From Phycisphaerae bacterium (GTDB lineage: Bacteria > Planctomycetota > Phycisphaerae > Sedimentisphaerales > SM23-30): a stretch of 64,000 bases of DNA. Positions 50,250 through 53,087 of this stretch are shown piece by piece; position 1 is the stretch's first letter, and each line of letters starts with the position of its first letter. Position numbers and translations under genes: made by a program. The stretch spans positions 1-64,000 of the forward strand of contig JAEIOG010000007.1 in the NCBI GenBank assembly GCA_016342495.1, given 5' to 3'. The notes below the pieces were generated by a model that was not told the DNA's origin, made no database searches, and was given only the letters and a program-made list of their open reading frames with translations.

Positions 50250-51350
50250 CTATACCGTAACTGGCATTAGAACATACAAAAAATCTTTACCGCTTCGCAA
50301 AACCCCAGGCTTATTCTCACCGGCAAACTCCATCACTATCTCTGGAGTATCAATCACCTTCAAGGCCTCAAGAATATATTGAGGATTAAAACCAATTTTC
50401 ATATCCGGCCCGTCAAATGCGATAGGCATATTGATTTCTGCGTCCCCTGCTTCAGGAGTGCTGCTGGACAGGCACAGGTTATCCGAAGAGTAACTCAACA
50501 CAATCCCATTAGTATGCTCATTGGTGAGCAATGCTGCCCGCCTGACAGCACTGAGAAACGATTCCTTTTGCATATGGGCTTTGATATCACAGCCCGTGGG
50601 GATAACATCGGTATATTTCGGGAATCGCCCCTGCACCAGATTTGCCGAAAACTTAACTTTTTCAGTTCTAACAACAATTTGGTTGTTTTCAATACTGATA
50701 CGCACCTTTTCCATTGGCTCAGTTAGAACTCGCTCAATCACCGCCATCGCCTTAACCGGAACAATCGCGGTCTGATCCTGAGCTATTGCCACCGATAATC
50801 CCCCATCAATCTGGGCCAACCTTCGCCCGTCAGTAGCGACCATCCGCAACTTTTTACCGCTCAATTCCCACAAAACTCCATTGATAGCGTAGCGGCTGCT
50901 TTCCCTGGCGGCTGAAAATGCTGACATGTGAATCATCTTTTTCAGCACTGATGCTTCAATTTCCAGAACATTTTCCTGCTCTTCTATCTCTATCACAGGG
51001 AAATCGTCTGGGTCATAACCATAAATATTATATTCGCTGTCCTGACCGGTTACATGGCAGGTAGATTCTATTAATTCCAGATCTATATTTTCATCTTTTG
51101 TCTCATGCAGAATCCGGCCCATCCGATCCGCTGGCAGCACCATAGTGCCTCCAACTTCTACCAATACGCCCGATAAAGTGTAATCAATTGTTACTTCGTT
51201 ATCTGTTGCAATAACTCGCAAAGACTGATTTTCCTGATCCGCCACTAGTTTGGCACATTGTAAAACCGGTTTTGGGGTGCGGGTTGGTACGATTGACGAT
51301 GCTAACTGGATAGCTTCATTTAGAGCTGATCGGCTGCATTTCAGTTTCAT
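50250..51350 (-). CDS. dnaN: DNA polymerase III beta subunit (sliding clamp)
   Basis: The ring clamp that tethers DNA polymerase III. The 366 residues carry the three-domain pattern: MKLKCSRSALNEAIQLASSIVPTRTPKPVLQ at the start, VLPADRMGRILHET, FSAARESSRYAINGVLWEL and RRLAQIDGG in the centre, and FNPQYILEALKVIDTPEIVMEFAG to DFLYVLMPV at the C-terminus. The length is typical. It is the gene nearest to the presumed origin and is transcribed away from it. Confidence 0.98.
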   Translation of the reverse strand: MKLKCSRSALNEAIQLASSIVPTRTPKPVLQCAKLVADQENQSLRVIATDNEVTIDYTLSGVLVEVGGTMVLPADRMGRILHETKDENIDLELIESTCHVTGQDSEYNIYGYDPDDFPVIEIEEQENVLEIEASVLKKMIHMSAFSAARESSRYAINGVLWELSGKKLRMVATDGRRLAQIDGGLSVAIAQDQTAIVPVKAMAVIERVLTEPMEKVRISIENNQIVVRTEKVKFSANLVQGRFPKYTDVIPTGCDIKAHMQKESFLSAVRRAALLTNEHTNGIVLSYSSDNLCLSSSTPEAGDAEINMPIAFDGPDMKIGFNPQYILEALKVIDTPEIVMEFAGENKPGVLRSGKDFLYVLMPVTV

Positions 51351-51893
51351 AACCGTTTACCTTTCTTTTGCACTGGCCTACTCCATTGAATTTTGAGTCA
51401 CTGAGTTTGCACATGCGGTATATTAATATATATTAGTATAATAATTTAAATCAGTATTGTTATTCATATGTCCTGTGAAATCTGTTAGATGTCACGTCCG
51501 GCAATTATAACCTATATTATGGCAAGAGTTTAGCAAAAAAACTCATTGTGGAAAAACTGTTCAATTAACTGATGCCAACTGTGCGTATCAGTACTGATAA
51601 CGCCGATTAAAACAACACCCCTGATATTTTGTGTGCGACAATCTCTTACTTATCCACATAACCTGACAAGTTATCCACACCTTCTCACAGATGTTCTAAC
51701 AGAAATATTCAAAACATTGGTCCAATAACCCGCAATTATACACATTATTGGACCACAAATCCAGTTTTCAGTACTGAAAACAACGATTTTTTTATTACTT
51801 TATTCTTCAATTCAATCAGTAGAGTTGTAGTTATCCACCACCTGTCCACAACATTGGCTAAGCTTTCGGTTTTAACTGGCCAAGTAACCAAGG
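51351..51893. other. putative chromosomal replication origin (oriC)
   Basis: A 543-bp gene-free region between dnaN and an HD-GYP gene. It has exact DnaA boxes TTATCCACA at 51650-51658 and 51671-51679, TTATACACA at 51736-51744, and near matches at 51831-51839 (TTATCCACC), 51842-51850 and, on the minus strand, 51547-51555. An AT-rich tract (51415-51475) could be the unwinding element. Two palindromes with a TCAGTACTGA core lie at 51586-51599 and 51764-51781. The dnaN-dciA-gyrB neighbourhood is typical of origins, although dnaA is not in the window. Confidence 0.75.
51719..51754. repeat. perfect inverted repeat enclosing a DnaA box
   Basis: GGTCCAATAA (51719-51728) and TTATTGGACC (51745-51754) are perfectly complementary and enclose 16 nt that include TTATACACA, a DnaA-box consensus match (51736-51744). 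The element lies within the presumed origin. Confidence 0.8.
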
Positions 51894-53087
51894 CTAAAAC
51901 AAATAAGTACTTACATCAAAATCGCCCACTTTGGCAATAGATAACTCTGAGTTGTATTGTAAATTGATATCTTCGACTTGTGCTTGCTGACCTTCTGGGC
52001 CAATATCGCCGGTTGCTTTGTCGAGATCTACAGGCCTGACTGTTGGCCTGCAGGGGGCTTTGGCGTTTATTTGTGTTACTACTGCCTCTTGACCATTATT
52101 AAGTGTAACGCTTTCCCCAATACCGAAAGCTGGCATTGCATCTGTGAAAGCCTTAAATACTATTGGGTCAAACCATTTTATATAGCCTGGGTTATTTAAC
52201 CTTTTTAACGCAACAATATTTGGTGCGACACGACCATCAGGCAAATGTCGGAAGTTAATAAAACGGTCGGCCAGCGTGGCAATTCGGCCAAAAACGTGAA
52301 TATCGTCACCTTTCAGAGTGAAATAAGGATCTTTCGTGCCTGGAACTGGGTTTCTTTTCGGGAAACCACTGCCATCAAAATGCTGATGATGATTCAAAAC
52401 GATTTGTCCAGCCAGTGGATCAAGCCCACCTTTTATCATTGTATAGCCCACTTCGGTATGGCTCTGCCAGTGCTGAGAACCCCGATCCTGAGCGGTCAAC
52501 TTAAAATTAATTTCTTCTTCGGTCATTCCCATTTTGCCTACGTCATGCAACAGACAGCCCAGCCCCAAGGGAGTCAGGCAGCTGGCCAGCGATGGCGGGG
52601 TATTTGGGCGACACCGCACAATATGGGAATCCAGACGCATTCCTATTAGCATAGCCAGGGATGCAACTTGAGTGCCATGATGGAATAAATCCTGATTATT
52701 GCCATGCAATTCATCTATGAAATGTGCTGATTCGCAATTTACCGAAACCATTCTTGAAAACAATGCTGTGAGCTGATCGACAAAAAGACCATAGTTGATA
52801 TTGCTAAGTCCTTGATCTTGCTGGGCTTGAGCAAATTCTTCTTTCAGACTTCCATAAAGTTTCTGTTGTTTGTCGACCATCTTCTGGTCTATTACATTAT
52901 CAAGAAAATCCAAACCCGGATAATGAATCCAGGCACTATACACCCTTAATATCCTTAAACGCTTGATATAATCTTCGTTTAATTCAAAACCTGTTTTAAG
53001 TAAAACATGCCCATCGGTGTTTGGGTCTAAGATTGATTGTGCCAGCACCATACCTGGGCGGGCCTGTTCTATGGAAACTCTTAACAT
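51894..53087 (-). CDS. HD-GYP domain protein (putative c-di-GMP phosphodiesterase)
   Basis: A 397-residue cytoplasmic protein with no membrane segment. Its C-terminal half has the HD-GYP signature: FHHGTQVASLAM, LLHDVGKMGMT (the HD pair), HTEVGYTMI, VLNHHQHFDGSGFP (the GYP loop read as GFP) and RIATLADRFIN. The N-terminal 130 residues resemble the DUF3391-type region often preceding HD-GYP domains. The change from GYP to GFP is tolerated in active members. No diguanylate cyclase is in the window. Confidence 0.9.
   Translation of the reverse strand: MLRVSIEQARPGMVLAQSILDPNTDGHVLLKTGFELNEDYIKRLRILRVYSAWIHYPGLDFLDNVIDQKMVDKQQKLYGSLKEEFAQAQQDQGLSNINYGLFVDQLTALFSRMVSVNCESAHFIDELHGNNQDLFHHGTQVASLAMLIGMRLDSHIVRCRPNTPPSLASCLTPLGLGCLLHDVGKMGMTEEEINFKLTAQDRGSQHWQSHTEVGYTMIKGGLDPLAGQIVLNHHQHFDGSGFPKRNPVPGTKDPYFTLKGDDIHVFGRIATLADRFINFRHLPDGRVAPNIVALKRLNNPGYIKWFDPIVFKAFTDAMPAFGIGESVTLNNGQEAVVTQINAKAPCRPTVRPVDLDKATGDIGPEGQQAQVEDINLQYNSELSIAKVGDFDVSTYLF

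Follow-up and report, generated by a model that had tools for sequence, protein, structure and literature searches.

A conserved symmetric site upstream of dnaN is probably the operator of a regulator specific to one order of Planctomycetota

Introduction

Replication control in the Planctomycetota is poorly known, and the stretch of 64,000 nucleotides analysed here (the window; contig JAEIOG010000007.1 of a Phycisphaerae bacterium, positions 1 to 64,000) raises the question of what recognises two perfect palindromes that share a core and lie on either side of DnaA boxes next to dnaN. The original prediction was a dimeric origin-binding protein that is not one of the well-known oriC regulators. 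CtrA in Caulobacter, MtrA in Mycobacterium, AdpA in Streptomyces and HP1021 in Helicobacter are transcription factors that also bind oriC. In a literature search on TCAGTACTGA, and on the regulons and origins of Planctomycetes, nothing matched. As set out below, the palindromes are probably operators of an order-specific dimeric regulator, with transcription control as its core job and replication genes among its targets.

The palindrome pair and its surroundings

The two palindromes are perfect, share the core CAGTACTG and lie 180 bp apart with DnaA boxes between them, as had been predicted, in the 543-bp intergenic region between an HD-domain protein gene and dnaN (Table 1). The core occurs at 51589 and 51769 and nowhere else in the window, which also agrees with the prediction, and at least two copies of it were found anywhere in only 3 of 100 shuffled windows. 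The length of the palindromes alone means little, since those of at least 14 bp are as common in the window as in shuffles (5 observed, 5.7 expected) and an 18-bp palindrome was present in 54 of 200 shuffled windows. Single palindromes of 14 to 18 bp are hence to be expected in a window of such size, which is what a chance resemblance of the two would start from; however, two palindromes sharing a 10-bp core at most 250 bp apart appeared in none of 200 shuffles, and the motif is both conserved and enriched, so that chance is refuted as an explanation and keeps a negligible probability. Furthermore, the two sites resemble each other past the ends of the palindromes, TCAGTACTGATAACGCCGATT and TCAGTACTGAAAACAACGATT being 86% alike. 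The best-scoring site of the window is the 16-mer TTTTCAGTACTGAAAA of palindrome 2, which is flanked by A/T tracts (acaaatccag before it and caacgattttttt after it), while the weaker third site inside the dnaN coding sequence may be a chance match.

Table 1. Positions of the palindromes, DnaA boxes, genes and candidate promoter elements in the window
Feature	Sequence	Position	Strand	Bits (DUF2617-only matrix)	Remarks
Palindrome 1	TATCAGTACTGATA	51586-51599			14 bp, perfect
16-mer of palindrome 1	GTATCAGTACTGATAA	51585-51600		21.5	
Palindrome 2	GTTTTCAGTACTGAAAAC	51764-51781			18 bp, perfect
16-mer of palindrome 2	TTTTCAGTACTGAAAA	51765-51780		24.6	
Weaker third site	TTTTCAATACTGATAC	50686-50701		18.6	inside dnaN coding sequence
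DnaA box	TTATCCACA	51650-51658	+		exact
DnaA box	TTATCCACA	51671-51679	+		exact
DnaA-box-like sequence	TTATACACA	51736-51744	+		fits TTATNCACA
Candidate -10 hexamer	TATAAT	51735-51740	-		24 nt downstream of palindrome 2, reading towards dnaN
Inverted repeat	TGGTCCAATAA / TTATTGGACCA	51718-51755			perfect, 11 bp, 16-nt loop; encloses the candidate minus-strand TATAAT
dnaN		50250-51350	-		downstream of the sites; Pfam DNA_pol3_beta domains
HD-domain protein gene		51894-53087	-		other side of the intergenic region

Three exact DnaA boxes had been announced between the palindromes. Two are exact copies of TTATCCACA, whereas the third, TTATACACA, fits only the degenerate form TTATNCACA; together they make up, within 95 bp, a DnaA-box cluster of the kind expected of an oriC at the dnaN locus. 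These boxes and the dnaN-dciA-gyrB cluster favour an origin at this locus, but the GC skew lends the presumed origin no support, as it is negative to the left and to the right of 51.6 kb and does not switch anywhere in the window. The skew of the single-contig relative G033 tracks local blocks and not replichores and is uninformative on the origin. In G033, two of the three exact DnaA boxes in 400 kb of sampled stretches lie at most 600 bp upstream of dnaN. The dnaA gene is far from dnaN in the window genome and in its relatives. Nearly every genome also encodes a second, divergent DnaA-like protein with about 32-40% identity to DnaA (for example G000:C94:11488-12438).

The minus-strand TATAAT between the palindromes could, judging from its sequence, be the -10 box of a promoter towards dnaN, and no good -35 was found for it. 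The HD-domain gene adjoins dnaN in most family members. In the dnaN-proximal promoter a block near ATATGAATAATACTRCTGG at 51426-51470, followed by a TATAAT-like box, is conserved across the family (dnaN upstream regions L010-L020).

Shape and phylogenetic range of the site

Both palindromes are instances of a 16-bp symmetric site, TTWTCAGTACTGAWAA, with A/T tracts outside. In relatives, the sites upstream of dnaN read, for example, TTACCAGTACTGAAAA in G008, ATTTCAGTACTGATAT in G007 and TTACCAGTATTGATAA in G033, and the consensus of these dnaN-upstream sites is TTWYCAGTAYTGRWAA. Many sites can be written as AAAA-nCSSC-n-TTWTCAGTACTGAWAA-n-GSSG-nTTTT, the window site at 51764 among them, and the whole symmetric site measures about 36 bp. 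A sequence of this shape could act as a nucleic-acid structure and not as a protein site, that is, as a terminator or one of a set of REP-like hairpin repeats. Indeed, a fold-back of the 16-mer is possible, and in a few copies (L160, L163) a G+C-rich stem is combined with a T-run as in terminators. However, the outer flanks are usually conserved A/T tracts that are mostly non-complementary, as in the window copy, which by inspection also has A/T-rich stems and so does not look like an intrinsic terminator. In addition, the core that would form the loop is invariant, and the sites at DUF2617 genes described below lie just upstream of the promoter at a fixed distance. Since the outer flanks do not usually pair, contact with a symmetric protein explains the site better than a hairpin does, and we consider the hairpin decidedly improbable.

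The strict motif was present in 100 of the 161 genomes of the order (Sedimentisphaerales-like), where the reversed pattern gave almost no match, and in 59 relatives it had well over a hundred matches compared with about ten for the reversed control; some counts rest on metagenome assemblies that are incomplete. The nearest relatives that bear a name are MAGs with the label Sedimentisphaerales. Outside the order, a phylum-wide draw yielded a match in 1 of 282 other Planctomycetota, a count obtained with the slightly stricter TTWTCAGTAYTGAWAA and among high G+C genomes that lower the chance expectation of a match. The restriction of the motif to the order is nevertheless clear from the reversed control and the in-order numbers.

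The bare 10-mer TCAGTACTGA occupies 8 places in the 5.4-Mb assembly of the window's own genome (each counted once although a palindrome is listed once per strand), compared with 3 for the reversed pattern. By our own estimate base composition alone would give about 6, which means that the bare 10-mer shows no enrichment. Two of the 8 are the window sites, one precedes dnaG by about 230 bp and another two lie between genes; some sites of this genome are slightly off the consensus.

Comparison with the known binding sites supports the part of the prediction that set aside the well-known oriC regulators, as the motif matches none of those that could be tested. Like parS of ParB and NBS of Noc it is a 16-bp palindrome with some copies near the presumed origin, but its sequence is another one and its sites stand at promoters instead of being clustered around the origin only. 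The parS sequence TGTTTCACGTGAAACA is present in the window as a single copy with 3 mismatches, which is chance-level, and the palindrome differs from it; ParB/parS was thus rejected. DnaA boxes share with the site an AT-rich TTWTC start and occur together with it at dnaN and dnaA, whereas the site is a symmetric 16-mer, separate from and beside the true boxes. The palindrome half TTATCAGTA does not fit TTATNCACA, and a DnaA box was rejected as well.

A related possibility is that two inverted DnaA-like 9-mers (TTATCAGTA) overlap in the site and are bound by a second DnaA paralogue. The TTATC start and the A/T at position 3 do resemble DnaA boxes and a divergent DnaA paralogue is present in the genomes, but it is also found in f4 genomes that lack the motif, the two 9-mers would have to overlap by 2 bp, and DnaA boxes rarely lie within 200 bp of the non-replication sites; this explanation is therefore hardly credible.

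DUF2617 promoters

The sites are mostly found outside genes, 87 of 109 distinct ones lying outside ORFs of at least 120 aa in fetched loci that are 79% coding. The gene most often found next to them is DUF2617 (PF10936); its product is widespread and of unknown function, and the operator would tie it to the control circuit of dnaN, dnaA and dnaG. A site stands 85-118 bp before the start of 29 of 30 DUF2617 genes, and among further DUF2617 genes, mostly from the window's own family, about 10 of 15 have one in the fetched upstream stretch. These promoters are built alike: the palindrome is followed by 5 nt, TTGA, about 17 bp and a TATAAT-like box, an arrangement that would put the palindrome centre near -48. 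A fixed -35 spacing was rejected as a general rule, given that it is seen mainly at DUF2617 sites. Some 20 bp upstream of the palindrome, DUF2617 genes have a second conserved element, CTTGCAAAATAATCGTCCGATAAG (e.g. L289-L318), which resembles a sigma-28-type promoter; in L303 it reads TAAACTTG-N11-TCCGATAA.

The constancy of this site could mean that the DUF2617 protein is itself the regulator and autoregulated. The presence of a site at almost every DUF2617 promoter in the order would fit, and so would G040, which has neither DUF2617 nor the motif while its congener G051 has both. On the other hand, Corynebacterium glutamicum, Haloferax volcanii and some other Planctomycetota have DUF2617 without the motif, motif sites are present in G078 and G094, where no DUF2617 was found, and the protein gave no solved homologue and no recognised DNA-binding domain. 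Because the protein and the motif occur without each other, DUF2617 is more likely the most constant target, and its being the regulator appears improbable.

Replication genes

The first matrix was built on dnaN-upstream sites and is circular for dnaN, which a matrix trained on DUF2617 sites only is not. The latter was applied to other genes as an independent test with a cut-off of at least 16 bits. Upstream of dnaN it found 14 matches in 56 kb, about 50-fold over background, falling in 10 of 97 genomes, many of which are outside the order; upstream of dnaA there were 7 matches in 17 kb, about 80-fold over background. The remainder of the same loci contained 3 matches in 594 kb, and the reversed matrix had none at this cut-off in these loci. 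Recovery was weaker upstream of dnaG, with 5 of 30 regions at 15 bits or more. Nearly all matches in the intergenic control fell in DUF2617, dnaA, dnaN or dnaG regions retrieved as targets and left unmasked; one leftover match was at recA of G028.

A palindromic operator near replication genes also recalls LexA and the SOS response, whose operators are likewise palindromes upstream of replication genes. However, the 30 recA upstream regions gave a single weak match of 14.7 bits and the targets are not SOS-like, so that LexA is largely refuted and its involvement extremely unlikely.

The window's own genome has, apart from the two sites at dnaN, one at dnaG (17.0 bits) and one at DUF2617 (15.0 bits), and none at its dnaA. 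In G008 the spacing between the dnaN site and TTGAAA equals that of the DUF2617 promoters. Conservation in relatives, on which the prediction depended, is partial: other genomes of the order also have related sites ahead of dnaN, but in the window's family only 4 of the 10 members whose dnaN upstream region is complete have kept theirs. DnaA boxes lie within 200 bp of 9 of 112 sites, mostly at dnaN and dnaA loci, and a general association with DnaA boxes beyond these loci was rejected.

The putative regulator and its other targets

The picture that best fits these results is that of a regulator confined to one order of Planctomycetota that would bind TTWTCAGTACTGAWAA as a symmetric dimer within the A/T-tract-flanked site of about 36 bp, with transcription control as its main job. 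The presumed operator at DUF2617 genes directly adjoins the -35 box with constant spacing, and in several genera it would also have been recruited to dnaN with its DnaA-box region, to dnaA and to dnaG. In the window's own genome the operator pair flanking the DnaA-box cluster most likely sets dnaN expression, and it may also influence DnaA assembly. The idea of an unrecognised dimeric regulator is therefore plausible, and the symmetric, conserved, protein-type operator that recurs at dnaN, dnaA and dnaG in the order agrees with it. By contrast, "origin-binding" is too narrow, as the site is not reserved for the origin but is the probable operator of a small regulon with replication genes as recurrent members, through which the regulator would couple replication to other functions of the cell; copies stand before unrelated genes, DUF2617 being the most constant. 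The copies outside origins, in this genome and in relatives, are conserved promoter sites and not random ones.

The flanking of a DnaA-box cluster, together with A/T tracts that suggest bending, would also suit a protein such as YbaB/EbfC or HU, with a nucleoid-associated or architectural role. Short GTnAC palindromes are the target of EbfC, which one study reportedly links to DnaA. Nevertheless, a few sites per genome with a specific 16-bp core are too sparse and too specific for such a protein, and the core here is GTAC and not GTnAC; we regard this as very unlikely.

The transcriptional regulator favoured here resembles CtrA, MtrA, AdpA and HP1021 in that its regulon would combine sites in the regions of replication genes or origins with sites at many further promoters: the same operator is found at the dnaN/DnaA-box region, dnaA and dnaG as well as at DUF2617 and others. 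It differs from them in its motif, in its restriction to the order and in being predicted from its sites. A stronger version, which we hold only tentatively, is an order-specific master regulator functionally like CtrA or MtrA, with paired operators around the oriC DnaA boxes and further ones at the dnaA, dnaN, dnaG and tmk-holB promoters, tying initiation to a regulon that includes DUF2617.

Most target genes are not replication genes. Besides DUF2617, 85 other neighbours comprise nucleotidyltransferases, TonB receptors, HAD hydrolases, porins, DnaA and single cases; rfbA/glmU are among the targets, as is tmk-holB in G051. The 85 target genes share no transcription-factor family and no regulator gene stands out there; the conserved and sharply defined operator common to dnaN, dnaA and dnaG provides a direct way to capture the regulator. 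At rfbA/glmU and other genes (L240, L245, L250, L253, L256 and similar) the upstream site is followed by TTGCWTTGCCGATA and, further on, by a GTATAGT-like box, a recurrent promoter form. In the window's own genome a dnaJ-like gene lies about 400 bp from the motif site L181 (G000:C167:39341), which directly adjoins TTTATCCACA.
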